Below the pieces are notes generated by a model. It worked only from the letters and a program-made list of their open reading frames with translations. It was not told where the DNA came from and did not search any database. DNA of 64,000 nt from Bolinopsis microptera (taxonomy: Eukaryota; Ctenophora; Tentaculata; Lobata; Bolinopsidae), in assembly GCF_026151205.1 (NCBI RefSeq), contig NC_087084.1, forward strand, positions 432,001 to 496,000. The letters are read 5' to 3'. A program made the position numbers and the translations under genes. This document shows positions 20,947 to 57,900 of this stretch, one piece after another (position 1 is the first letter of the stretch; the number at the start of each line of letters is the position of its first letter).

Positions 20947-23900
20947 ATGCAAGTTGGAACAACCACTGTTGAGAGCAACCCTAATGCTAGCTACCTGGAC
21001 AGCAGGTTACTAACTTTATTAACTAATGCTAGCTACCTGGATAGCAGGTTACTAACTTTATTAACTAATGCTAGCTACCTGGATAGCAGGTTACTAACTT
21101 TATTAACTAATGCTAGCTACCTGGATAGCAGGTTACTAATTTTATTAACTAATGCTACGGACAGCAGGTTACTAACTTTATTAACTAATGCTAGCTACCT
21201 GGATAGCAGGTTACTAACTTTATTAACTAATGCTAGCTACCTGGATAGCAGGTTACTAACTTTATTAACTAATGCTAGCTACCTGGATAGCAGGTTACTA
21301 ACTTTATTAACTAATGCTAGCTACCTGGATAGCAGGTTACTAACTTTATTAACTAATGCTAGCTACCTGGATAGCAGGTTACTAACTTTATTAACTAATG
21401 CTAGCTACCTGGATAGCAGGTTACTAACTTTATTAACTAATGCTAGCTACCTGGATAGCAGGTTACTAACTTTATTAACTAATGCTAGCTACCTGGATAG
21501 CAGGTTACTAATTTATTAACTAATGCTACGGACAGCAGGTTACTAACTTTATTAACTAATGCTAGCTACCTGGATAGCAGGTTACTAACTTTATTAACTA
21601 ATGCTAGCTACCTGGATAGCAGGTTACTAACTTTATTAACTAATGCTAGCTACCTGGATAGCAGGTTACTAACTTTATTAACTAATGCTACGGACAGCAG
21701 GTTACTAACTTTATTAACTAATGCTAGCTACCTGGATAGCAGGTTACTAACTTTATTAACTAATGCTAGCTACCTGGATAGCAGGTTACTAACTTTATTA
21801 ACTAATGCTAGCTACCTGGATAGCAGGTTACTAACTTTATTAACTAATGCTAGCTACCTGGACAGCAGGTTACTAACTTTATTAACTAATGCTAGCTACC
21901 TGGATAGCAGGTTACTAACTTTATTAACTAATGCTAGCTACCTGGATAGCAGGTTACTAACTTTATTAACTAATGCTAGCTACCTGGATAGCAGGTTACT
22001 AACTTTATTAACTAATGCTAGCTACCTGGATAGCAGGTTACTAACTTTATTAACTAATGCTAGCTACCTGGATAGCAGGTTACTAACTTTATTAACTAAT
22101 GCTAGCTACCTGGATAGCAGGTTACTAACTTTATTAACTAATGCTAGCTACCTGGATAGCAGGTTACTAACTTTATTAACTAATGCTAGCTACCTGGATA
22201 GCGGGTTACTAACTTTATTAACTAATGCTAGCTACCTGGATAGCAGGTTACTAACTTTATTAACTAATGCTAGCTACCTGGATAGCAGGTTACTAACTTT
22301 ATTAACTAATGCTAGCTACCTGGATAGCAGGTTACTAACTTTATTAACTAATGCTAGCTACCTGGATAGCAGGTTACTAACTTTATTAACTAATGCTAGC
22401 TACCTGGATAGCAGGTTACTAACTTTATTAACTAATGCTAGCTACCTGGACAGCAGGTTACTAACTTTATTAACTAATGCTAGCTACCTGGATAGCAGGT
22501 TACTAACTTTATTAACTAATGCTAGCTACCTGGATAGCGGGTTACTAACTTTATTAACTAATGCTAGCTACCTGGATAGCAGGTTACTAACTTTATTAAC
22601 TAATGCTAGCTACCTGGATAGCAGGTTACTAACTTTATTAACTAATGCTAGCTACCTGGATAGCAGGTTACTAACTTTATTAACTAATGCTAGCTACCTG
22701 GATAGCAGGTTACTAACTTTATTAACTAATGCTAGCTACCTGGATAGCAGGTTACTAACTTTATTAACTAATGCTAGCTACCTGGACAGCAGGTTACTAA
22801 CTTTATCAACTAATGCTAGCTACCTGGATAGCAGGTTACTAACTTTATTAACTAATGCTAGCTACCTGGATAGCAGGTTACTAACTTTATTAAATAATGC
22901 TAGCTACCTGGACAGCAGGTTACTAACTTTATTAACTAATGCTAGCTACCTGGATAGCAGGTTACTAACTTTATTAACTAATGCTAGCTACCTGGATAGC
23001 AGGTTACTAACTTTATTAACTAATGCTAGCTACCTGGATAGCAGGTTACTAACTTTATTAGCTAATGCTAGCTACCTGGACAGCAGGTTACTAACTTTAT
23101 TAACTAATGCTAGCTACCTGGATAGCAGGTCACTAACTTTATTAACTAATGCTAGCTACCTGGATAGCAGGTTACTAACTTTATTAACTAATGCTAGCTA
23201 CCTGGACAGCAGGTTACTAACTTTATTAACTAATGCTAGCTACCTGGATAGCAGGTTACTAACTTTATTAACTAATGCTAGCTACCTGGATAGCAGGTTA
23301 CTAACTTTATTAACTAATGCTAGCTACCTGGATAGCAGGTTACTAACTTTATTAACTAATGCTAGCTACCTGGATAGCAGGTTACTAACTTTATTAACTA
23401 ATGCTAGCTACCTGGACAGCAGGTTACTAACTTTATTAACTAATGCTAGCTACCTGGATAGCAGGTTACTAACTTTATTAACTAATGCTAGCTACCTGGA
23501 CAGCAGGTTACTAACTTTATTAACTAATGCTAGCTACCTGGATAGCAGGTTACTAACTTTATTAACTAATGCTAGCTACCTGGACAGCAGGTTACTAACT
23601 TTATTAACTAATGCTAGCTACCTGGATAGCAGGTTACTAACTTTATTAACTAATGCTAGCTACCTGGATAGCAGGTTACTAACTTTATTAACTAATGCTA
23701 GCTACCTGGATAGCAGGTTACTAACTTTATTAACTAATGCTAGCTACCTGGATAGCAGGTTACTAACTTTATTAACTAATGCTAGCTACCTGGATAGCAG
23801 GTTACTAACTTTATTAACTAATGCTAGCTACCTGGATAGCAGGTTACTAACTTTATTAACTAATGCTAGCTACCTGGATAGCAGGTTACTAACTTTATTA

Positions 23901-26900
23901 ACTAATGCTAGCTACCTGGATAGCAGGTTACTAACTTTATTAACTAATGCTAGCTACCTGGATAGCAGGTTACTAACTTTATTAACTAATGCTAGCTACC
24001 TGGATAGCAGGTTACTAACTTTATTAACTAATGCTAGCTACCTGGATAGCAGGTTACTAACTTTATTAACTAATGCTAGCTACCTGGATAGCAGGTTACT
24101 AACTTTATTAACTAATGCTAGCTACCTGGATAGCAGGTTACTAACTTTATTAACTAATGCTAGCTACCTGGATAGCAGGTTACTAACTTTATTAACTAAT
24201 GCTAGCTACCTGGATAGCAGGTTACTAACTTTATTAACTAATGCTAGCTACCTGGATAGCAGGTTACTAACTTTATTAACTAATGCTAGCTACCTGGATA
24301 GCAGGTTACTAACTTTATTAACTAATGCTAGCTACCTGGACAGCAGGTTACTAACTTTATTAACTAATGCTAGCTACCTGGATAGCAGGTTACTAACTTT
24401 ATTAACTAATGCTAGCTACCTGGACAGCAGGTTACTAACTTTATTAACTAATGCTAGCTACCTGGATAGCAGGTTACTAACTTTATTAACTAATGCTAGC
24501 TACCTGGATAGCAGGTTACTAACTTTATTAACTAATGCTAGCTACCTGGATAGCAGGTTACTAACTTTATTAACTAATGCTAGCTACCTGGATAGCAGGT
24601 TACTAACTTTATTAACTAATGCTAGCTACCTGGATAGCAGGTTACTAACTTTATTAACTAATGCTAGCTACCTGGATAGCAGGTTACTAACTTTATTAAC
24701 TAATGCTAGCTACCTGGATAGCAGGTTACTAACTTTATTAACTAATGCTAGCTACCTGGACAGCAGGTTACTAACTTTATTAACTAATGCTAGCTACCTG
24801 GATAGCAGGTTACTAACTTTATTAACTAATGCTAGCTACCTGGACAGCAGGTTACTAACTTTATTAACTAATGCTAGCTACCTGGATAGCAGGTTACTAA
24901 CTTTATTAACTAATGCTAGCTACCTGGATAGCAGGTTACTAACTTTATTAACTAATGCTAGCTACCTGGATAGCAGGTTACTAACTTTATTAACTAATGC
25001 TAGCTACCTGGATAGCAGGTTACTAACTTTATTAACTAATGCTAGCTACCTGGATAGCAGGTTACTAACTTTATTAACTAATGCTAGCTACCTGGATAGC
25101 AGGTTACTAACTTTATTAACTAATGCTAGCTACCTGGATAGCAGGTTACTAACTTTATTAACTAATGCTAGCTACCTGGATAGCAGGTTACTAACTTTAT
25201 TAACTAATGCTAGCTACCTGGATAGCAGGTTACTAACTTTATTAACTAATGCTAGCTACCTGGATAGCAGGTTACTAACTTTATTAACTAATGCTAGCTA
25301 CCTGGATAGCAGGTTACTAACTTTATTAACTAATGCTAGCTACCTGGATAGCAGGTTACTAACTTTATTAACTAATGCTAGCTACCTGGATAGCAGGTTA
25401 CTAACTTTATTAACTAATGCTAGCTACCTGGATAGCAGGTTACTAACTTTATTAAATAATGCTAGCTACCTGGATAGCAGGTTACTAACTTTATTAACTA
25501 ATGCTAGCTACCTGGATAGCAGGTTACTAACTTTATCAGCTAATGCTAGCTACCTGGATAGCAGGTTACTAACTTTATTAACTAATGCTAGCTACCTGGA
25601 TAGCAGGTTACTAACTTTATTAACTAATGCTAGCTACCTGGATAGCAGGTTAATAACTTTATTAACTAATGCTAGCTACCTGGATAGCAGGTTACTAACT
25701 TTATTAGCTAATGCTAGCTACCTGAATAGCAGGTTACTAACTTTATTAACTAATGCTAGCTACCTGGATAGCAGGTTACTAACTTTATTAACTAATGCTA
25801 GCTACCTGGATAGCAGGTTACTTACTTTATTAGCTAATGCTAGCTACCTGGATAGCAGGTTACTAACTTTATTAACTAATGCTAGCTACCTGGACAGCAG
25901 GTTACTAACTTTATCAGCTAATGCTAGCTACCTGGACAGCAGGTTACTAACTTTATTAACTAATGCTAGTTACCTGGACAGCAGGTTACTAACTTTATTA
26001 ACTAATGCTAGCTACCTGGATAGCAGGTTACTAACTTTATTAGCTAATGCTAGCTACCTGGATAGCAGGTTACTAACTTTATTAGCTAATGCTAGCTACC
26101 TGGATAGCAGGTTACTAACTTTATTAACTAATGCTAACTACCTGGATAGCAGGTTACTAACTTTATTAACTAATGCTGGCTACCTGGATATCAGGTTCCT
26201 AACTTTATTAACTAATGCTAGCTACCTGGATAGCAGGTTACTAACTTTATTAACTAATGCTAGCTACCTGGACAGCAGGTTACTAACTTTATTAACTAAT
26301 GCTAACTACCTGGATAGCAGGTTACTAACTTTATTAACTAATGCTAGCTACCTGGATAGCAGGTTACTAACTTTATTAACTAATGCTAGCTACCTGGATA
26401 GCAGGTTACTAACTTTATTAACTAATGCTAGCTACCTGGATAGCAGGTTACTAACTTTATTAACTAATGCTAGCTACCTGGATAGAAGGTTACTAACTTT
26501 ATTAACTAATGCTAGCTACCTGGATAGCAGGTTACTAATTTTATTAACTAATGCTAGCTACCTGGATAGCAGGTTACTAACTTTATTAACTAATGCTAGC
26601 TACCTGGATAGCAGGTTACTAACTTTATTAACTAATGCTAGCTTCCTGGATAGCAGGTTACTAACTTTATTAACTTATGCTAGCTACCTGGATAGCAGGT
26701 TACTAACTTTATTAACTAATGCTAGCTACCTGGATAGCAGGTTACTTACTTTATTAGCTAATGCTAGCTACCTGGATAGCAGGTTACTAACTTTATTAAC
26801 TAATGCTAGCTACCTGGATAGCAGGTTACTAACTTTATTAACTAATGCTAGCTACCTGGATAGCAGGTTACTAACTTTATTAACTAATGCTAGCTACCTG

Positions 26901-29900
26901 GATAGCAGGTTACTAACTTTATTAACTAATGCTAGCTACCTGGATAGCAGGTTACTAACTTTATTAAATAATGCTAGCTACCTGGATAGCAGGTTACTAA
27001 CTTTATTAACTAATGCTAGCTACCTAGATAGCAGGTTACTAACTTTATTAACTAATGCTAGCTACCTAGATAGCAGGTTACTAACTTTATTAACTAATGC
27101 TAGCTACCTGGACAGCAGGTTACTAACTTTATTAACTAATGCTAGCTACTTGGACAGCAGGTTACTAACTTTATTAACTAATGCTAGCTACCTGGATAGC
27201 AGGTTACTAACTTTATTAACTAATGCTAGCTACCTGGACAGCAGGTTACTAACTTTATTAACTACTGCTAGCTACCTGGATAGCAGGTTACTAACTTTAT
27301 TAACTAATGTTAGCTACCTGGATAGCAGGTTACTAACTTTATTAACTAATGCTAGCTACCTGGATAGCAGGTTACTAACTTTATTAACTAATGCTAGCTA
27401 CCTAGATAGCAGGTTACTAACTTTATTAACCAATGCTAGCTACCTGGATAGCAGGTTACTAACTTTATTAACTAATGCTAGCTACCTGGATAGCAGGTTA
27501 CTAACTTTATTAACTAATGCTAGCTACCTGGATAGCAGGTTACTAACTTTATTAAATAATGCTAGCTACCTGGATAGCAGGTTACTAACTTTATTAACTA
27601 ATGCTAGCTACCTGGATAGCAGGTTACTAACTTTATTAACTAATGCTAGCTACCTGGATAGCAGGTTACTAACTTTATTAACTAATGCTAGCTACCTGGA
27701 TAGCAGGTTACTAACTTTATTAACTAATGCTAGCTACCTGGATAGCAGGTTACTAACTTTATTAGCTAATTTGTTTTAATTATTTTACTTATTAAACTTG
27801 ATTACAGGTGGTTTATTTAACTAATACCATTGTGTTTGTTGATTAATAATAACATTACCAGGTATTTCTGGATAGCTTATACTGGAGCAGTGTGTTTCCT
27901 TCACCTCATGTGTTCATGTGTCCCCTCTATTACAGCTACAACTGGCTGGCTCTGCACTATTAACGTGCACAATATCGTTAGTAATCAGTAATTAGTAACT
28001 TATTAACATTAATTAACACTATGTTTTAATTAAACTATTGTCAACTATAGTATTATAAGATGCAAGAATATAGTCTTAGGTACTGGTTTCATTAAAAACG
28101 AAGATCACTTCCTCAACCACTGTGATCTTAACGCTGTTACGAGAGGTGAAAACAACTGCGACATCATATCCTCCTCAGTGCGGAGTCCTCACACTGCCAA
28201 CCTGCTAATACATAATATATATTATATATATGGGCAATTTCATAAAACATGAACAAGGAGGGAAAAAATGTATATATATATATTATATACATTATACAAC
28301 GCAGCCTAGCGTTGCTAAACTATTTGCCTTTACTTTTAACACATCAGTTTCTTGCATCTACTCTAGTAGCACACTACACGCTGCTACATCTACTCTAGTA
28401 GCACACTACACGCTGCTACATCCAGTTTCTTGCATCTACTCTAGTAGCACACTACACGCTGCTACATCTACTCTAGTAGCACACTACACGCTGCTACATC
28501 CAGTTTCTTGCATCTACTCTAGTAGCACACTACACGCTGCTACATCCAGTTTCTTGCATCTACTCTAGTAGCACACTACACGCTGCTACATCTACTCTAG
28601 TAGCACACTACACGCTGCTACATCCAGTTTCTTGCATCTACTCTAGTAGCACACTACACGCTGCTACATCTACTCTAGTAGCACACTACACGCTGCTACA
28701 TCCAGTTTCTTGCATCTACTCTAGTAGCACACTACACGCTGCTACATCCAGTTTCTTGCATCTACTCTAGTAGCACACTACACGCTGCTACATCTACTCT
28801 AGTAGCACACTACACGCTGCTACATCCAGTTTCTTGCATCTACTCTAGTAGCACACTACACGCTGCTACATCTACTTTAGTAGCACACTACACGCTGCTA
28901 CATCTACTCTAGTAGCACACTACACGCTGCTACATTATATACTCTAGTAGCACACTACACGCTGCTACATCTACTCTAGTAGCACACTACACACTGCTAC
29001 ATTATCTACTCTAGTAGCACACTACACGCTGCATCTACTCTAGTAGCACACTACACGCTGCTACTAGAGTATCAGTAGCACACTACACGCTGCTACATCT
29101 ACTCTAGTAGCACACTACACGCTGCTACATCTACTCTAGTAGCACACTACACACTGCTACATTATCTACTCTAGTAGCACACTACACGCTGCTACATCTA
29201 CTCTAGTAGCACACTACACACTGCTACATTATCTACTCTAGTAGCACACTACACGCTGCTGCTAGAGTACCAGGAGAATGGTTTTATTGTACAGGTTCTT
29301 ATAATTCTGTTAAAATCTTATCACACACTCTACTACTACACACACGGATAAAGTTACTTTTGTGTATGATATTTCCAACAAGTACAAGTACAATACCTGT
29401 TGTGTCCCTGTAATACACGTAATTGTTTAAAGGTGACCTGAGTAATTGTTTAAAGGTGACCTGAGTAATTGTTTAAAGGTGACATGAGTAATTGTTTAAA
29501 GGTGACCTGAGTAATTGTTTAAAGGTGACCTGAGTAATTGTTTAAAGGTGACCTGAGTAATTGTTTAAAGGTGACCTGAGTAATTGTTTAAAGGTGACCT
29601 GAGTAATTGTTTAAAGGTGACCTGAGTAATTGTTTAAAGGTGACCTGAGTAATTGTTTAAAGGTGACCTGAGTAATTGTTTAAAGGTGACCTGAGTAATT
29701 GTTTAAAGGTGACCTGAGTAATTGTTTAAAGGTGACCTGAGTAATTGTTTAAAGGTGACCTGAGTAATTGTGTAAAGGTGACCTGAGTAATTGTGTAAAG
29801 GTGACCTGAGTAATTGTTTAAAGGTGACCTGAGTAATTGTTTAAAGGTGACCTGAGTAATTGTTTAAAGGTGACCTGAGTAATTGTTTAAAGGTGACCTG

Positions 29901-32900
29901 AGTAATTGTTTAAAGGTGACCTGAGTAATTGTTTAAAGGTGACCTGAGTAATTGTTTAAAGGTGACCTGAGTAATTGTTTAAAGGTGACCTGAGTAATTG
30001 TTTAAAGGTGACCTGAGTAATTGTTTAAAGGTGACCTGGGTAATTGTGTAAAGGTGACCTGAGTAATTGTTTAAAGGTGACCTGAGTAATTGTTTAAAGG
30101 TGACCTGAGTAATTGTTTAAAGGTGACCTGAGTAATTGTTTAAAGGTGACCTGAGTAATTGTTTAAAGGTGACCTGAGTAATTGTTTAAAGGTGACCTGA
30201 GTAATTGTTTAAAGGTGACCTGAGTAATTGTTTAAAGGTGACCTGAGTAATTGTTTAAAGGTGACCTGGGTAATTGTTTAAAGGTGACCTGAGTAATTGT
30301 TTAAAGGTGATCTGAGTAATTGTTTAAAGGTGATCTGAGTAATTGTTTAAAGGTGACCTGAGTAATTGTTTAAAGGTGACCTGAGTAATTGTTTAAAGGT
30401 GACCTGAGTAATTGTTTAAAGGTGACCTGAGTAATTGTTTAAAGGTGACCTGAGTAATTGTTTAAAGGTGACCTGAGTAATTGTTTAAAGGTGACCTGAG
30501 TAATTGTTTAAAGGTGACCTGAGTAATTGTTTAAAGGTGACCTGAGTAATTGTTTAAAGGTGACCTGAGTAATTGTTTAAAGGTGACCTGAGTAATTGTT
30601 TAAAGGTGACCTGAGTAATTGTTTAAAGGTGACCTGAGTAATTGTTTAAAGGTGACCTGAGTATACTGTACCTTATATATATATACTAGTCTCAAATAAT
30701 ACTGGAAACTAGCTGAAAGCTTTATCCGAGGAATATTAAAATATAATAATATAGATAGTATAATATAGATAGTATATATATAGATAGTATAATATAGATA
30801 GTATATATATATGGGTAAACTAGACCTGCATATATATTCTTGTGAACTCGGCTAGTATATATGAAACATTTGTCATGGAGTTGTAGAGGGAGTTATGTGC
30901 CTCGCCGGGCTAAAGTAGTGGATGACCTTGCTGTACGGCAAGTTAAACAAGGATCTGAAACTACTAGGTTCCGTACAGACTCAACTCTGCACCCGTGTCA
31001 ATATGTTCATTATATGCAAGCCTCTTGATTTATAAGCCAGGGGAACGGCCCATAGCAGGGTAACCAGGATGGCCCGGTACCCAAAAACCTGATTAACTAG
31101 CAAAGATAAAAAATAACAATAGGTAATAAATAGATACCAATACTATACCGATATAAGATGCATAGTTCAGAAGGATCAAACCGGGATGTTCCTTCTGTTA
31201 GTCTTTTGTAGGAGTCCATGGCTGTCGTATTCTTGTCTCTATTTCTTTTCTTCTCCGTGTTGTATTAGTCTTGCTGTAACGAGGAGTTAAAGAAATGTCT
31301 GGTATGGAATACTATGTTCCTGGGAGGTATCATGTTAAAGATATAGAGGGCTGGGGAAGTCCCTGAATCATGTCAATGAGCAATAAGAGGAAACTGAGTA
31401 GGTAACGTGGTTGTCCCTTCCACAATCAGCAAAGATGAAAAAGAGGGGTGAGGGGGGAGAGAGAGAGAGACAGGCATTAAGTCAAGCTACGAGAGCCGTC
31501 CAGTGGACTGTTGAGCCCTTAGAACTGGCTGGGTAGCAGGACCTTCTGCAAGTCTGAACACGATCTGGGGAGGGGAGGGTGATTGTGGTAGAGGGACAAT
31601 TACGTCAGCTAAGGCTAAGAGAAAGAGACTAAGGGGGTTCATAGAAATCTAGATACTTGGTAGCTCTAGCGAACCCCACTATGTTACTGATAGAGAAGGT
31701 TTGATGGAAGGTGTCCTCTCTGATGGTATAGTTACCAAGGTAGTATTTCCTGTGTATGGAGAATGCTGGACAGCTTGTGAGGTAGTGTGCTGTAGTTTCC
31801 TTGTCTTCATCACACTTTTTGCATATGCTGTTGGGTTCGTTGCCAATCTTGTTTTGGAAATATCTGAGATAACTGCATCCTGTGAATAGATGGGTAAGAA
31901 TTCTGGTATTGTCTCTATTATGTCGTTTAACGTCAAGGTGTCTGTCAAAGAAACTAATAATGTTGGATTGTTGAAAATCGGTGGAGGATCTGAAGAGTAA
32001 TAAACGTTTATAGTGAAGTCGAGAAAAGTAACTGTCTAAAATATTAGAGAGAGAGGAGTGAGTGTAAGGGGCAAAAGGAGGCGGTCCAATGGGAGGAGAG
32101 TCGGATCCTTTGTTTGCCAGAGAATCTGCGAGATCATTGCCTATTATTCCACTATGCGCCGGTACCCAGTGGAGGGTGACGGATATCGTCCTGCTAAGTG
32201 CGTTGAGGGCTCCTAGAGTGTCTAGGATGAGGTGGGATCGGGTGATAGTGCCCGATAAGGCAAGAAGAACTGCTTTGCTGTCGATACAGATGTGGAGCTC
32301 AGTAGCTTCGTAAGAGTTCTTGGAGAGGTGGATACAGAGGTGGAGTAAAGCCAGTAACTCTGCTTGGAAGATGGTTGTGGTGTTTCCGAGTTGGTGGAAA
32401 TGTTCTGTAATAGACGATGAGTTAAGAAAGAGGACGAACCCCGCTCCTGCGAGGTTGTTCTTCACCGAGCCGTCGGTGTATCCCACTAGAGTGTCTGGTT
32501 TATGTAGGAGAGGGATCTGAACAAGGGCAACCGAGCGGTCGAGAATATCCGTTGTGAAGGATTGTGACAGGTTGAGTGATGCTGGTGCTATGTCTAAAAG
32601 GGAAAGAGGTGGGAGAATCTTCTTGAGCTGATCATTGAGGAGTATTGAGTGAGATGTCAGCTTTCCGTCTCTAAGTCCGTATGAGGCGGACGAAGTGATG
32701 TTAAGCCTGAGGAAAGTTTTAAGAGAAATGGAGTGAATCCTGAGGTCGAGAGGGGGGATTTGGGTGAGGACCTCTAAGTAACAGGTCGGAGAGGAGGAGA
32801 TGGCTCCTGTGATCAGGAGTAGAGCTGTTCTTTGTACGTGGTTGAGCATGTTAGTAGCCCATTTTCTGGAGTCCAGTATATGGCTCCAGACCACTGATCC

Positions 32901-35900
32901 ATGAGAAAGAGCTGGGATGATGATTTGTTCGTAGATCCAGAGTGTGTAGGAAGGTTTAAGTCCCCATTTTTTGCTACAGGCAGATCTGATGGTGTGCAGG
33001 TTCCTGATAGCTTTATTACAAGTGGCATCAATGTGGGGTCTCCATAGGAGCTTGGAGTCAAGGGTAATACCAAGGTACTTGACCTCATTTACAAGGTGAA
33101 TGTTGATGCCTCTAAGAGATAGGGGTTTATCAAGCGTCCATAATCGTTTCCTGGTAAACATGATAGCTTGGGTCTTGAGAGAGCTAAGTTTTACGCCGAT
33201 GGTCGTGCACCAATTATCAATGATAATGAGGTATCTTTGACAAATGGCTCTGATGGTGGGAATGTCTAATCCTCCTACTATGATGGAGAGGTCGTCTGCG
33301 AAGGCTTGAATGAATGATGTGTCTAGGTTGTGGTTAGAGAGGAGGTCGTTAAGAGTAAGGTTCCAGAGAAATGGCGAGAGTACTCCTCCTTGAGGGCAGC
33401 CTCTGCTGATAGTTCTAGAAATAGAGATACCGTTAAGGGTGAGAGTGATAACTCTACGGGAAACCATATAGTAAATCCAGTTGCATAAGGTGGTGGGAAT
33501 TCCCGAGTTGTTGAGGTTATGGTAGATGGCGTCATAAGAGATGTTGTCGAAGGCTCCTTCAATGTCCAAAAAGAGTCCTAGGGCTTGATTTCCAGCTGAG
33601 AGGGAAAATTCAATTTTGTTGGTAATCTTGTGAAGGGCGGAGTCGGTAGAGAAGTTTCTCTTGAAACCATGTTGGTTGTCTGTAGTGAGGTTGGAGAGTC
33701 CAATGTCGGCTTCAATGTACCAGATGATCAGTTTCTCCATAATCTTCTGTAGAGTCGAAGTAAGGCTGATGATACGAAATGCTCGCACATTTGTATAGTC
33801 GTCTTTAAGAGGTTTGGCGATGACCACACCATTAGCCTCATTCCAGTCGTCAGGTGTGATACCCAAACGGAAGGAGTGTTTATAAAGGTGAAGAATACAA
33901 GGTGAGATAGAATCCCAGCATGCGTTAATCATATTGAGTCGAATGTTGTCTGGTCCCGGAGATTTGTTCGGAGCCATGTCCATGCAGACTTTCTTCAGTC
34001 TGATAGGCGTGATCAAAGAGTTGATGATGTTGTCATGATCTGGGCCTGGCCTGGGTCAATAGGAGTGTGTGCTATCGGGTTGTCAATGGGGAGGAGAGCT
34101 TCCGCTAGCGTATCTAGGGTTTCTCTTGGAGATGATGTGAAGCTGCCGTTCGGTTTTTTAAGGGATCCTAGTTGTCCGGGATTAGTGTTCAGTGATTTCA
34201 TGACTTTATGGAGTCTAGCTGCTGAGGGTATGCTAGAAATAATAATAATATAGATAGTATAATATGTAGATAATTTATAATGTAGATAATATAATATTGA
34301 TAATATATAATATAGATAATATAATATAAAATAATATAACATTGACAATAATATGATGTAGATAATGTAATATAGATTCTTTCCCTTATCAACCCTACAT
34401 GCATCACACCTGATCACACAGTGTCAGGGACCTGATCACACCTGATCACACCCAAATATAAAGTTACCGCTTCTTTAGATAATATTATTATTTTTTCATT
34501 GAAACAACTTATAAATTAACATTCCGCAGGGGAATTTTATCGTGTTTCACTATCTGAGAGGATCTCCGTTTGGTTGCAGCGATCAAGGAGAGAACAGACA
34601 GCTAACACATTGGGAACAGATAAACCACGGCAAACAGTGGACAAACACAAGGAAATTCCTTATCATCTTCCCCTGTATATTGTAAGTAAAACACAAGGAA
34701 ATTCCTTATCATCTTCCCCTGCATATTGTAAGTAAAACACAAGGAAATTCCTTATCATCTTCCCCTGTATATTGTAAGTAAAACACAAGGAAATTCCTTA
34801 TCATCTTCCCCTGCATATTGTAAGTAAAACACAAGGAAATTCCTTATCATCTTCCCCTGCATATTGTAAGTAAAACACAAGGAAATTCCTTATCATCTTC
34901 CCCTGCATATTGTAAGTAAAACACAAGGAAATTCCTTATCATCTTCCCCTGCATATAGTAAGTAAAACACAAGGAAATTCCTTATCATCTTCCCCTGTAT
35001 ATTGTAAGTAAAACACAAGGAAATTCCTTATCATCTTCCCCTGCATATAGTAAGTAAAACACAAGGAAATTCCTTATCATCTTCCCCTGTATATTGTAAG
35101 TAAAACACAAGGAAATTCCTTATCATCTTCCCCTGCATATTGTAAGTAAAACACAAGGAAATTCCTTATCATCTTCCCCTGCACATTGTAAGTAAAACAC
35201 AAGGAAATTCCTTATCATCTTCCCCTGCATATAGTAAGTAAAACACAAGGAAATTCCTTATCATCTTCCCCTGTATATTGTAAGTAAAACACAAGGAAAT
35301 TCCTTATCATCTTCCCCTGTATATTGTAAGTAAAACGCAAGGAAATTCCTTATCATCTTCCCCTGTATATTGTAAGTAAAACGCAAGGAAATTCCTTATC
35401 ATCTTCCCCTGTATATTGTAAGTAAAACACAAGGAAATTCCTTATCATCTTCCCCTGCATATTGTAAGTAAAACACAAGGAAATTCCTTATCATCTTCCC
35501 CTGTATATTGTAAGTAAAACACAAGGAAATTCCTTATCATCTTCCCCTGCATATTGTAAGTAAAACACAAGGAAATTCCTTATCATCTTCCCCTGCATAT
35601 TGTAAGTAAAACACAAGGAAATTCCTTATCATCTTCCCCTGCATATTGTAAGTAAAACACAAGGAAATTCCTTATCATCTTCCCCTGCATATAGTAAGTA
35701 AAACACAAGGAAATTCCTTATCATCTTCCCCTGTATATTGTAAGTAAAACACAAGGAAATTCCTTATCATCTTCCCCTGCATATAGTAAGTAAAACACAA
35801 GGAAATTCCTTATCATCTTCCCCTGTATATTGTAAGTAAAACACAAGGAAATTCCTTATCATCTTCCCCTGCATATTGTAAGTAAAACACAAGGAAATTC

Positions 35901-37860
35901 CTTATCATCTTCCCCTGCACATTGTAAGTAAAACACAAGGAAATTCCTTATCATCTTCCCCTGCATATAGTAAGTAAAACACAAGGAAATTCCTTATCAT
36001 CTTCCCCTGTATATTGTAAGTAAAACACAAGGAAATTCCTTATCATCTTCCCCTGTATATTGTAAGTAAAACGCAAGGAAATTCCTTATCATCTTCCCCT
36101 GTATATTGTAAGTAAAACGCAAGGAAATTCCTTATCATCTTCCCCTGCATATAGTAAGTAAAACACAAGGAAATTCCTTATCATCTTCCCCTGTATATTG
36201 TAAGTAAAACACAAGGAAATTCCTTATCATCTTCCCCTGTATATTGTAAGTAAAACACAAGGAAATTCCTTATCATCTTCCCCTGTATATTGTAAGTAAA
36301 ACGCAAGGAAATTCCTTATCATCTTCCCCTGTATATTGTAAGTAAAACGCAAGGAAATTCCTTATCATCTTCCCCTGCATATAGTAAGTAAAACACAAGG
36401 AAATTCCTTATCATCTTCCCCTGTATATTGTAAGTAAAACACAAGGAAATTCCTTATCATCTTCCCCTGTATATAGTAAGTAAAACACAAGGAAATTCCT
36501 TATCATCTTCCCCTGTATATTGTAAGTAAAACACAAGGAAATTCCTTATCATCTTCCCCTGTATATTGTAAGTAAAACGCAAGGAAATTCCTTATCATCT
36601 TCCCCTGTATATTGTAAGTAAAACGCAAGGAAATTCCTTATCATCTTCCCCTGCATATAGTAAGTAAAACACAAGGAAATTCCTTATCATCTTCCCCTGT
36701 ATATTGTAAGTAAAACACAAGGAAATTCCTTATCATCTTCCCCTGTATATTGTAAGTAAAACACAAGGAAATTCCTTATCATCTTCCCCTGCATATAGTA
36801 AGTAAAACACAAGGAAATTCCTTATCATCTTCCCCTGTATATTGTAAGTAAAACACAAGGAAATTCCTTATCATCTTCCCCTGCATATAGTAAGTAAAAC
36901 ACAAGGAAATTCCTTATCATCTTCCCCTGTATATTGTAAGTAAAACACAAGGAAATTCCTTATCATCTTCCCCTGCATATTGTAAGTAAAACACAAGGAA
37001 ATTCCTTATCATCTTCCCCTGTATATTGTAAGTAAAACACAAGGAAATTCCTTATCATCTTCCCCTGCATATTGTAAGTAAAACACAAGGAAATTCCTTA
37101 TCATCTTCCCCTGCATATTGTAAGTAAAACACAAAGACATTCCTTATCATCTTCCCCTGCATATTGTAAGTAAAACACAAGGAAATTCCTTATCATCTTC
37201 CCCTGTATATTGTAAGTAAAACACAAGGAAATTCCTTATCATCTTCCCCTACATATTGTAAGTAAAACACAAGGAAATTCCTTATCATCTTCCCCTGTAT
37301 ATTGTAAGTAAAACACAAGGAAATTCCTTATCACCTCCCCTGCATATTGTAAGTAAAACACAAGGAAATTTCAAATTACAAGCCGATTAAAGTTGAGTGA
37401 AGAAGAATTACGATTTTTGCCCCGACAAAATTGTTAATGCTACCAAACATACAGTTCTTGAAATATCTCCCAATTGTTTAAGTAACGTCCCCCTAATTTG
37501 AAGTAAAGTTCCTCCTAATTGTGTCAGTCATGTCCCCCTAGATATGTCCCCCTAAACACGCTTTATGTTAAAGTTTTTTAAGTTTGTTGCCATTCAATAA
37601 TAATTTTAAAATTTTTTGTAGACTTATCAGATCTTTAAGATGTTTATTGTTAACTACTTCAGATTTGTGTTAAGTTTGATAATAATGTCCCCCTAATTAT
37701 GTAAGTAAGGTCTCTTTGTCCCAGGTTTCTGATGTGCCAGCACTACTGCGACTACTCTTCTGACGTACTCTTCCAATCAATACCTTCCTTCCTCTTACAG
37801 TTCATACCTAAACAACCCTTCATGCACGCCAAACGACTATTTGGTATTAACAAATACTAA
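20947..37860 (+). CDS. ORMDL: ORMDL sphingolipid biosynthesis regulator, complete gene
   Basis: Four exons with matching phases: 20947-21005, 27862-27976, 34530-34681, 37725-37860. They sum to exactly 153 codons, the length of vertebrate ORMDL proteins. Exon 1 reads MQVGTTTVESNPNASYLDSR, aligning without gaps to the ORMDL N-terminus (M-VG---S--NPN----SR). Exon 3 has GSPF..DQG....LTHWEQI and TRKFL; exon 4 ends RLFGINKY, the invariant ORMDL C-terminus. ORMDLs are ER membrane proteins that bind and restrain serine palmitoyltransferase in response to ceramide. The hydrophobic segments are much diverged (many Cys, Tyr and Phe replacements). Introns are 6.9, 6.6 and 3.0 kb; donors are GTTACT, GTTAGT and GTAAGT. 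Introns 1 and 3 start with tandem copies of their own exon/donor junction. AATAAA at 37883 follows the stop. Confidence 0.95.
20983..27766 (+). repeat. about 160 copies of a 42-bp exon/intron-junction repeat (ORMDL intron 1)
   Basis: Unit: AATGCTAGCTACCTGGATAG plus CAG (the last 23 nt of ORMDL exon 1), then GTTACTAACTTTATTAACT (the first 19 nt of intron 1). The first copy is the real exon end, which has GGACAGC; most array copies have GGATAGC. A few copies are 36 bp (AATGCTACGGACAGC...). Divergence rises toward the 3' part (25.4-27.7 kb), while 22-25 kb is nearly homogeneous. Because 42 and 36 are multiples of 3, the exon frame stays open (NASYLDSRLLTLLT) until a 1-bp deletion near 21511. Confidence 0.97.
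27977..28330. other. start of ORMDL intron 2, with an unassigned open segment
   Basis: From about 28059 to 28215 a plus-strand frame reads like protein (VLGTGFIKNEDHFLNHCDL and onward) without recognised family or clear splice sites. It may be a pseudogene or retroelement fragment. Also holds a short AT repeat near 28215. Confidence 0.3.
28340..29272. repeat. 32/46-bp tandem repeat in ORMDL intron 2
   Basis: Core unit TCTACTCTAGTAGCACACTA plus CACGCTGCTACA (32 bp), alternating with copies extended by TCCAGTTTCTTGCA (46 bp). CTACTCTAGTAG gives each copy a small palindrome. Later copies degenerate and carry TTATATAC or TTATCTAC joints. Confidence 0.9.
29425..30662. repeat. 23-bp tandem repeat in ORMDL intron 2
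   Basis: About 54 copies of GTGACCTGAGTAATTGTTTA plus AAG, very homogeneous; variants are TGTGTAAAG, TGATCTGAG and CTGGGTAA. Confidence 0.95.
30663..30829. repeat. AT-rich (TAGATAGTATAATA)-type repeat
   Basis: Degenerate TAGATAGTATAATA repeats. Related sequence continues at 34237-34380, so the LINE between them was inserted into this array. Confidence 0.7.
30830..34236 (-). mobile_element. 5'-truncated LINE with RT and RNase H (I/R1/LOA-like)
   Basis: Minus-strand non-LTR element inserted in an AT repeat within ORMDL intron 2. It includes the coding frame at 31629-34016, an upstream out-of-frame piece to about 34230, and about 800 bp of presumed 3' UTR. The endonuclease is missing. The 3' boundary is inferred from where the AT array resumes. 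Confidence 0.75.
31629..34230 (-). pseudogene. LINE reverse transcriptase / RNase H (frameshifted, truncated)
   Basis: The 795-codon frame (31629-34016, nominal TTG start, so not the true start) holds RT motifs SPGPDNI, FLDIEGAFD, GCPQGGVLSPFLWN and AFADDLS (a Y-to-F variant of the YxDD box, near residue 240). An RNase H follows (GYTDGS, QAELLALL, IDSKA, HWVPAHSGI), then a C-terminal CxxC..H..C knuckle (CKKC, TAHYLTSC). RT followed by RNase H and a CCHC knuckle fits the I/R1/LOA group. Upstream, a segment with LGSLKKPNGSFTSSPRETLD lies in another frame: a frameshift near 34040 separates it. Loss of the 5' end plus the frameshift means it is dead. Confidence 0.85.
34237..34529. other. end of ORMDL intron 2
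   Basis: Remaining AT array (34237-34380), a short CCTGATCACAC direct repeat near 34410-34450, then the acceptor TTCCGCAG of ORMDL exon 3. Confidence 0.6.
34645..37370 (+). repeat. about 59 copies of a 46-bp exon/intron-junction repeat (ORMDL intron 3)
   Basis: Unit: ACACAAGGAAATTCCTTATC plus ATCTTCCCCTGTATATT (the last 37 nt of ORMDL exon 3), then GTAAGTAAA (the start of intron 3). The first copy is the genuine exon end. Variants GCATATTG, GTATATTG, GCATATAG and GCACATTG leave GTAAGT intact in nearly all copies. A higher-order repeat of 16 units (736 bp) is visible: the rare GCACATTG copy at 35181 recurs at 35917 with the same neighbouring variants. 46 is not a multiple of 3, and GTAAGT gives an in-frame TAA, so read-through truncates the protein. 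Confidence 0.97.
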
Positions 37861-40540: not shown

Positions 40541-40888
40541 CTCTAGTGTTATTATGGTTACTATGGTTACTATGGTTACTAGTGTTATTATGGTTACTAT
40601 GGTTACTAGTGTTATTATGGTTACTATGGTTACTAGTGTTATTATGGTTACTAGTGTTACTATGGTTACTAGTGTTATTATGGTTACTATGGTTACTAGT
40701 GTTATTATAGTTACTATGGTTACTAGTGTTATTATGGTTACTATGGTTACTAGTGTTATTATAGTTACTATGGTTACTAGTGTTATTATGGTTACTAGTG
40801 TTATTATGGTTACTATGGTTACTATGGTTCGGTTACTATGTTTACTATGGTTACTAGTGTTATTATGGTTACTATAGTTACTAAGGTA
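40541..40888. repeat. GGTTACTATGGTTAC / AGTGTTATTAT array
   Basis: Interspersed GGTTACTAT and GGTTACTAGTGTTATTAT units (about 9 and 18 bp). It ends exactly at the acceptor of the minus exon at 40540. Sense and antisense frames over 130 codons are periodicity artefacts. Confidence 0.9.
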
Positions 40889-54974: not shown

Positions 54975-57900
54975 TTACACGATGGTCACGTCCTCTCGGA
55001 GGCTTTTTGGAGGTTGCACAGCTACAGACGTTTCATACTGAATAGTGGCGGCTCTTCTAACAAAATCAGGATAACCTTGTTGAATATTGTCAGCACGATA
55101 CCTTCTAAAATCAGGGTAACCACTGCTGGATCTGGTCAAGGTTATCATAGATTGAGACTTTATGTTAGTTGGATGGTAAAGTGAAGTTTCGTGTGGGACT
55201 AACTCTTCGCTACTGCGTCCAGTGAGCTGGCTGCAATATACTGGGGACAATAGTGTAGGGTTGTGTAGAGAGGTTTCATACTGTATAGTGGCGTGTGTGC
55301 TTCTGCTGGGGCGGCTGTTCATACCTGTACAAGGGAACAGTCCGAAAAACAGAAAAAAGCAGAAAAACAATTTATAGTCTTCAAATTTATTTGAGATTAC
55401 TTGATGGTTACTATGTTACTACCTGGTTACTAGGTTACTACCTGGTTACTATGTTACTACCTGGTTACTATGTTACTACCTGATTACAAGGTTACTACCT
55501 GGTTACTATGTTACTACCTGGTTACTATGTTACTACCTGGTTACTAGGTTACTACCTGGTTACTATGTTACTACCTGGTTACTATGTTGCTACCTGGTTA
55601 GTGATTACTAGGTTACTACCTGGTTACTACCTGGTTACTAGGTTACTACCTGGTTACTACCTGGTTACTAGGTTACTACCTGGTTACTAGGTTACTAGAG
55701 ATTACCTGATGTATACAGGTTTACCATAGACTTTGCGTGTACTCCTACTGGACCACCTGGTTTCCAATGTGAATTGTCCAATGTTGTTTCGTACTGCATT
55801 GTAGCGGCTCTGTTCTCTTTCACATCTCCTGTGGGAGTGAGGGTTTCTTGTGCGATCTGAGAGATTTGGTATTCCCTTTAAACTAATAGGTTAAAACATA
55901 TTTCTAAAAAAGTACCTGTAGTATGGTAGGGATTGTGTGTACTTTGTAAAGAAGTCTCTACTAAATCTCCAGTGGATTTGTTCTGGGATAGCTTCACTGG
56001 TGTGTCAAACGAAGTCTCATGCTCCATAGCAACCATGCCCCTAGCAACCAGGTCACCTCTGTAAGGAATGTGTTTTAAACTGTGAGCTTGTCTTAGATAT
56101 GGAGCTGAGTGTTGTGCTGTGTCACCATGGTAACCTGCTGTGTCACCATGGTAACCTGCTGTGTTACCATGGTAACCTGCTGTGTCACCATGGTAACCTG
56201 CTGTGTCACCATGGTAACCTGCTGTGTCACCATGGTAACCTGCTGTGTCACCATGGTAACCTGCTGTGTCACCATGGTAACCTGCTGTGTCACCATGGTA
56301 ACCTGCTGTGTCACCATGGTAACCTGCTGTGTCACCATGGTAACCTGCTGTGTCACCATGGTAACCTGCTGTGTCACCATGGTAACCTGCTGTGTCACCA
56401 TGGTAACCTGCTGTGTCACCATGGTAACCTGCTGTGTCACCATGGTAACCTGCTGTGTTACCATGGTAACCTGCTGTGTCACCATGGTAACCTGCTGTGT
56501 CACCATGGTAACCTGCTGTGTTACCATGGTAACCTACAGGTACTGGTACCAGGCTCCTCCTGGGAGCCTTGTGTTGGGATTGGGTTAAATCAAACAACTT
56601 AAAACAGAATACTTAGGGAATACTAGAGGCAGTTCAATAACAAAATCTACATTAATTGCTGAATGTTAGATCTGTTGTAACCTGTTTGTGTGGACGAGTT
56701 GTGTTTCTTTTGTAAAAACAGGAGAATTGCGACTATCCAGGCTTGTCTCTCTCTCAATTAAACAAGGAGTAGTTTTATTTCCAAGTTTATAACTACCCCC
56801 TCTCTGTACAGCAAGGTGGTTAATGGTAACCTGCTGTGTAACCTGCTGTGTAACCTGCTGTGTAACCTGCTGTGTAACCTGCTGTGTAACCTGAAGTGTA
56901 ACCTGCTGTGTAACCATGGAAACGGCTGAGGAGCACCTTCTTATTGGTACAGTCTTTAACCCTCTGGAGTTATCTAGTGTTGTCTCACGCTCCATCCTCC
57001 TGCTTACCACACTATCTGATACTCTCCTAGCTCCGTCACCATAGTAACCAAGCTGTCTCTCTCCGAACTGAGGACTAGGGAACCCTCTGGAGTTATCTAG
57101 TGTTGTCTCACGCTCCATCCTCCTGCTTACCACACTATCTGATACTCTCCTAGCTCCGTCACCATAGTAACCAAGCTGTCTCTCTCCGAACTGAGGACTA
57201 GGGAACCCTCTGGAGTTATCTAGTGTTGTCTCACGCTCCATCCTCCTGCTTACCACACTATCTGATACTCTCCTAGCTCCGTCACCATAGTAACCAAGCT
57301 GTCTCTCTCCGAACTGAGGACTAGGGAACCCTCTGGAGTTATCTAGTGTTGTCTCACGCTCCATCCTCCTGCTTACCACACTATCTGATACTCTCCTAGC
57401 TCCGTCACCATAGTAACCAAGCTGTCTCTCTCCGAACTGAGGACTAGGGAACCCTCTGGAGTTATCTAGTGTTGTCTCACGCTCCATCCTCCTGCTTACC
57501 ACACTATCTGATACTCTCCTAGCTCCGTCACCATAGTAACCAAGCTGTCTCTCTCCGAACTGAGGACTAGGGAACCCTCTGGAGTTATCTAGTGTTGTCT
57601 CACGCTCCATCCTCCTGCTTACCACACTATCTGATACTCTCCTAGCTCCGTCACCATAGTAACCAAGCTGTCTCTCTCCGAACTGAGGACTAGGGAACCC
57701 TCTGGAGTTATCTAGTGTTGTCTCACGCTCCATCCTCCTGCTTACCACACTATCTGATACTCTCCTAGCTCCGTCACCATAGTAACCAAGCTGTCTCTCT
57801 CCGAACTGAGGACTAGGGAAGCCAGCATATAGAGGAGCACTGAATTGTAACCCAGCTGAGAGCACTGAGTCTGTGTTACCTGAACTACTTGTAATACTGA

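Follow-up and report, generated by a model that had tools for sequence, protein, structure and literature searches.

Tandem arrays headed by a coding exon end and its splice donor in two introns of the ORMDL gene of Bolinopsis microptera, with boundary duplications in other genes

Intron 3 of the ORMDL gene of the ctenophore Bolinopsis microptera opens with a tandem array in which the end of coding exon 3 and its splice donor are repeated dozens of times, and a second array of the same design opens intron 1 of the same gene. Tandem duplications that span an exon–donor boundary recur beyond ORMDL in the same genome. The ORMDL arrays are a variant of the intronic minisatellite combined with boundary duplication, recurrent in one genome, and we consider it probable that they began as boundary-straddling tandem duplications, were tolerated via splicing from the first donor and then grew as minisatellites.

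The ORMDL Gene and the Array in Intron 3

The DNA analyzed, here called the window, is a stretch of 64,000 nucleotides (bases 432001–496000 of contig C13 in an assembly of 264.65 Mb). When spliced from their first donors, the four exons of the ORMDL gene on its plus strand (Table 1) encode a protein of 153 aa. This protein is a full-length member of Pfam family PF04061 (147.1 bits, profile positions 1–135 of 135), and its gapless alignment to a protein of Mnemiopsis leidyi, which is also 153 aa long and has no insert, shows 95% identity. The interval 34530–37860 singled out in the first-pass annotation proved to begin with exon 3 and to end with the stop codon in exon 4. Intron 2 also contains arrays, none of which touches either exon.

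Table 1. Features of the ORMDL gene (positions in the window) and duplications at the donors of other genes.
Feature	Position	Strand	Description
ORMDL exon 1	20947..21005	+	last 25 nt are the head of the intron-1 array
42-bp array	20981..27770	+	other sequence, same design; 162.1 copies of 25 nt of exon 1 end and 17 nt of intron 1
ORMDL exon 2	27862..27976	+	donor without array
ORMDL exon 3	34530..34681	+	last 37–39 nt are the first unit of the 46-bp array
46-bp array	34643..37370	+	exon end plus donor repeated; TRF: 59.3 copies, 97% matches, 0% indels
First donor GTAAGT	34682..34687	+	use gives the conserved protein; if passed, in-frame TAA directly after
Two 736-bp (16-unit) higher-order blocks	34645..36116	+	735/736 bases identical
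ORMDL exon 4 with stop codon	37725..37860	+	unrepeated
L117 (myosin)			40 bp × 22.1, 100% identical
L152 (kinesin)			35 bp, about 25 copies
L168 (kinesin)			about 33 bp, about 52 copies
L150 (kinesin)			53 bp, about 8 copies
L147 (kinesin)			38 bp × 2
L087 (kinase)			39 bp × 2, with G run
L118 (myosin)			two copies, 4 exon nt only; fails the 12-nt rule and is excluded from the six

The first-pass annotation had described the end of exon 3 and its donor as repeated about 59 times, and this was borne out by the TRF copy number and by the presence of 59 GTAAGTAAA donors, the first at 34682 and the last at 37349. The spacing between donors was 46 bp in 57 of the 58 cases and 45 bp in the other. 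The consensus GTAAGT, which that annotation had noted in nearly all copies, was found in 59 of 59 units. Each unit consists of 37–39 nt of the exon 3 end (37 nt had been claimed) and 7–9 nt of the intron, the exact register being ambiguous because AAACACAAGG is present at both ends. The 16-unit higher-order repeat was likewise recovered, with the qualification that it spans two blocks and not all of the array. Units 1–16 and units 17–32 matched in 15 of 16 unit types, and the agreement between units 16 apart was 21/43 (0.488), compared to at most 0.395 in shuffled arrays (n = 2000). Chance is excluded as an explanation of the array by its copy number and identity. At its downstream end the array shares a partial unit of 14–17 nt with the unit start, and intron 3 continues outside it with about 350 nt and the acceptor. 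In a search of first-look candidates, a query of two units matched only this array and, at C13:1-25752, the inverted counterpart of the region (34 matches).

Among the 58 parsed units, only 7 of 46 positions were variable. We considered the uniform donors as a sign of selection and rejected this, as the whole unit is uniform; the preservation of GTAAGT in every unit says little because so few unit positions vary. If they were exonic, 21 of the 58 units in the window would change the peptide, 12 of them via a stop, and the other 37 would encode it intact.

The Array in Intron 1

As the first-pass annotation had proposed, the array in intron 1 is an independent case: its 42-bp unit is unrelated in sequence to the 46-bp unit of intron 3. 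The length of this unit, a multiple of three, bears on the idea that the arrays are used, with downstream donors spliced and the repeats translated as a region of variable length. In the copy of the gene at C13:1-25752 the frame through the intron-1 array is open for 869 codons, which speaks for that idea; in the window, however, it stops at codon 191, the 46-bp array of intron 3 stops at once, and the Mnemiopsis relative carries no such region. We also examined whether the open frame is guarded and rejected this, based on the stop at codon 191 in one copy and on the distinct unit variants that create a stop (0/15 in the window and 1/10 in the other copy, against 8/126 of the possible single changes). 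We regard translation of the repeats as very improbable. With its frame open in one copy and broken in the other, the array may also lead gene finders to call a false repeat protein.

A Second Copy of the Region

Window positions 1–41997 are present a second time, in inverted orientation, at C13:1-25752, the very start of the same contig, with the larger aligned blocks about 83–97% identical. This second copy may be a retained second haplotype, in which case a haplotig has been joined to the end of the chromosome, or a real terminal inverted duplication. The arrays differ in length between the copies: 59 units of the 46-bp array are in the window and about 18 in the second copy, and the 42-bp array has 162 copies in the window and 61 in the second copy. 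In the shorter 46-bp array one unit has GTTAGT and one unit lacks GT. The presence of the region twice, once at a contig start as a retained haplotype would be, is what one might expect if the assembly had collapsed or falsely expanded repeats. Nevertheless, both copies carry both arrays, with differing lengths and variants, the differences among units are ordered, and a like design is found in other genes, so that an assembly artefact is the explanation to which we give the least credence of all.

Between the two copies, the ORMDL coding sequence has five differences in 462 positions, every one of them synonymous, and the exons are intact in both. One of the five differences lies inside the first unit of the array (exon T versus C, both common among the array units). 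Intact exons beside variable units fit selection on the first unit only, which is a weak test because 37 of the 58 units encode the intact peptide anyway.

Two further arrays were observed in these regions. In intron 2 of the window, 54 copies of a 23-bp unit (29419–30663) correspond to a single unit in the other copy (L001, around 2010–2045), and this array has been gained or lost between two close copies of the region. The second copy also has, at C13:1330-2165, a 58–60-bp array whose frame is open (KHETTRYVERKPVSDEG...) and which may be a coding repeat.

Boundary Duplications at the Donors of Other Genes

To extend the analysis beyond ORMDL, exons were mapped in kinase, dynein, myosin and kinesin genes, and their donor ends, mostly those of long introns or of exons for which no next exon was found, were examined for downstream recurrence of the 12 exon and 6 intron bases at the donor. 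A credible GT was present at 122 of 132 donors; the ten that were dropped had a best GT score below 6.5, and some of these are frames that simply read on. A duplication spanning the boundary was found at 6 of the 122 donors (6 of 120 after removal of near-duplicate partner loci), and four of the six are arrays of about 8, 22, 25 and 52 copies (Table 1). By family, the matches were 0/18 in dyneins, 1/22 in kinases, 1/42 in myosins and 4/38 in kinesins, a tally that leaves out the dynein donors L176 and L177 (no match). The units at L150, L152 and L168 each matched only their own locus among the first-look candidates, and based on this the three arrays look like independent births.

The early dynein and kinase donors and the first myosin donors had suggested that ORMDL was the sole case, which was overturned by the later myosin and kinesin donors. 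Three other candidates (L057, L061 and L086) were rejected as exon-headed since their arrays begin about 4–7 nt inside the intron, and the acceptor flags at L050 and L060 were rejected because they are at AGs other than the acceptor of the exon, both arrays stopping short of the exon. A codon-score screen for exon-headed arrays over 306 kb, a weak method, recognized only the four ORMDL arrays (two introns in two gene copies).

Several arrays of other kinds were seen during the survey. At L050 (C4:10060300-10061250), a dynein intron has an acceptor-side array that ends at the acceptor and whose 26-bp unit contains a branch-like TACTAAT motif and CAG. At L128 (C2:3175000-3177230), behind the next exon of the L117 myosin gene, is a long G-rich array that combines GTAATCAGTGAGTATTACAAATGTT with G runs. 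Arrays of GTTACTATG / CCATGGTAACC recur in the window (40548–40887, 55405–55697 and 56115–56535), at L057 and at C13:5957-6341; they resemble RFX X-box sites.

Evidence for a Probable Excess at Donors

The first-pass annotation had taken the two independent ORMDL cases to argue for a mechanism. This stood in so far as boundary duplications recur elsewhere, but two cases in one gene do not show a mechanism alone, because tandem arrays fill 14.8% of the 306 kb examined (window included) and the excess at donors has P values of 0.002 to 0.05. The annotation had staked its reading on a genome-wide search for further boundary arrays, and it was not refuted: the sampled donors supplied further cases, and triples of a donor word far outnumber those of its mirror image.

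We compared the six boundary duplications to two controls. The first took first-copy positions from other parts of the sampled introns of dynein, kinase and myosin genes (573/54,385), and gave an expectation of 1.3 (P = 0.002; at the upper bootstrap rate, 0.02); for duplications of at least three copies, the expectation was 0.57 and the observed number four (P = 0.003 or 0.02). The second control, positions +14 to +110 of the donors' own introns, gave an expectation of 2.6 (P = 0.049) and is inflated, as it contains 58 positions inside the L168 array itself. With this control, kinesins alone gave P = 0.085 and the rest P = 0.23. Together, these data make an excess at donors, 2- to 5-fold with a P value that depends on the control, likely rather than firm.

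Genome-wide, GGTAAGT in triples at 20–50-bp steps gave 5,515 matches (2009 + 3506) and the reversed word 47 (28 + 19), a 117-fold difference; these totals are of matches and not arrays, and are dominated by long arrays and perhaps by few repeat families. Outside arrays, GGTAAGT was only 1.7 times as frequent as the reversed word in the sampled sequence (31 versus 18). Triples of an acceptor-like word numbered 1,482 (627 + 855) compared to 307 (158 + 149) in the control, with a base excess of 2.3-fold (63 versus 27). Among the matches listed, we counted six loci of the donor type over the first 3.1 Mb of C1; for the acceptor type, 17 loci were counted over about 60 Mb. Two of the six listed donor-type loci are less than 40 kb from where the contig begins, and some of the loci may belong to a single repeat family. 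Arrays of GGTAAGT units with 32-bp steps are present at C1:36576-37702 and C1:761375-762149 and are perhaps duplicated; the printed unit of the former reads YLSKERYHE before GTAAG, and that array may be exon-headed.

Two explanations would account for an excess of this kind. In one, selection favors the repeated donors, since U1-binding sites in a row would help to define a long intron or to suppress premature cleavage and polyadenylation, an activity of U1 known as telescripting. The triple-word counts, large in spite of the small base ratio and exceeding the excess of the acceptor-like word, are in keeping with this, as is the number of sampled donors with duplications. On the other hand, long arrays contribute most of the matches counted, the donor shows no visible additional conservation within units in which only 7 of 46 positions vary, the other ORMDL copy has about a third of the donors, and the matched local control is only just significant. 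We therefore regard selection of the donors as unlikely. The same doubt attaches to the broader proposal that hundreds of introns begin with exon-headed arrays in which identical 5' splice sites are retained in excess for long-intron definition or shielding from premature cleavage, with ORMDL intron 3 being one of them, which we would put at about the same low level.

In the other explanation, donor boundaries are mutation hot spots at which DNA damage linked to transcription or splicing starts duplications more often. The donor excess and the triple-word excess would both follow, and the units at ORMDL intron 3, L117, L152 and L168 take in only 2–9 nt of intron, a pattern that we noted post hoc. 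The units of the other boundary cases take in 17–27 nt, however, and purely intronic arrays are common. No acceptor among 34 had exon sequence in the repeat unit, and the difference between this and 6/122 donors is not significant (P = 0.34). These observations make a hot spot at donors somewhat less probable still than selection.

Relation to Known Systems

Introners are near-identical repeated sequences with splice signals that are dispersed in the introns of unrelated genes. The ORMDL arrays are alike in that intronic sequence is repeated together with splice signals. The ORMDL unit differs in being undispersed, its matches among first-look candidates being at one locus and the inverted copy, and each of the other cases uses the exon end of its own gene.

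The array in intron 3 has the unit length and copy number of an intronic minisatellite (46 bp × 59.3), and its copy number varies between gene copies, whether these are alleles or paralogs. It is not wholly within the intron, as its first 37–39 nt are coding exon, and it works like a minisatellite with an exonic head. In the material cited here from PMC12783039, intron 1 of an earthworm metallothionein gene has an intronic minisatellite/VNTR that is similarly a high-copy array with copy-number differences between gene copies; the ORMDL array differs from it in beginning in a coding exon and including the donor.

Intron gain by tandem duplication across an intron–exon boundary, with splice signals inherited from the parent, is described for a potato RdRp gene, and multi-copy 24-bp exonic repeats containing AGGT for fission yeasts, in the parts of PMC4974935 used here, where introners are named as well. 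The likeness to ORMDL is in the boundary-crossing duplication and the inherited parental signals, the duplicated segment supplying a splice site in every unit. The difference is that a new intron results there, whereas in ORMDL a presumably existing intron keeps its first donor and its acceptor and is lengthened by dozens of copies. In human UBC, tandemly arrayed dual-specific splice sites flank coding monomers and serve as both donor and acceptor, and 792 human introns are embedded in tandem repeats, according to the portion of PMC10809524 to which we refer. ORMDL shares with UBC a splice site in each tandem unit, but the intron-3 unit cannot be dual-specific, since it has TT before GT and no AG: its units read ATT/GT or ATA/GT in place of AGGT, and the acceptor is outside the array. 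The CAG/GT of ORMDL intron 1 and of the L117 myosin is dual-specific in sequence only and not in use.

An intron whose donor and coding exon end head an array of dozens is described in neither PMC4974935 nor PMC10809524, as far as the portions cited of each extend. Searches of the open-licence literature listed nothing whose title or abstract mentions exon-headed donor arrays, which is weak evidence of absence.

A Model for the Origin of the Arrays

Based on these observations, we propose that a tandem duplication over the boundary of exon 3 and intron 3 would have copied the donor along with the ~37 nt of exon end before it. Splice-site duplications have been the subject of experiments. Splicing from the first, exon-proximal donor would leave the mRNA unchanged, and the duplication would thereby be harmless and tolerated. 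Later units would then be intron, nearly neutral and free to expand as an intronic minisatellite, with unequal exchange or slippage bringing the array to about 59 units and a block of 16 units being duplicated on the way; purifying selection would have maintained the exon copy throughout. Like events would have taken place independently in intron 1 and at the donors of several other genes. The anatomy of the arrays, their private sequence, the differing copy numbers and the intact exons beside variable units were all observed directly. Passing the first donor leads to a stop within 28 codons in 8 of the 9 boundary duplications, the exception being ORMDL intron 1. That the first donor is the one used is inferred.

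The duplications may have been born via short shared sequence. The start of the unit shares five bases with the sequence that follows the array in ORMDL intron 1 (CTAAT) and in the L117 myosin (CCTTC), which suggests microhomology at birth. In L147 and L118, which have two copies each, the shared sequence is about 1 nt at most. The 14–17-nt partial unit at the end of the intron-3 array is more than microhomology, and birth by microhomology does not explain it. Similarly, pure tolerance predicts a rate at donors close to that at other intron positions, and the donor and triple-word excesses are unexplained by tolerance alone.

These findings bear on how splicing is modeled, as models must say which of many identical 5' splice sites wins, and dozens of consensus donors after conserved coding exons are a natural experiment. 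With gene copies that have arrays of different length, first-donor choice, U1 crowding and cryptic use are directly measurable. The arrays also offer a route by which an intron is greatly lengthened with the protein untouched, and through them a coding exon end is linked, by identity of sequence, to a minisatellite that changes fast. Should the donor excess hold up in a count at the level of arrays, donor repetition would be a structure that is selected or targeted, and a new one.
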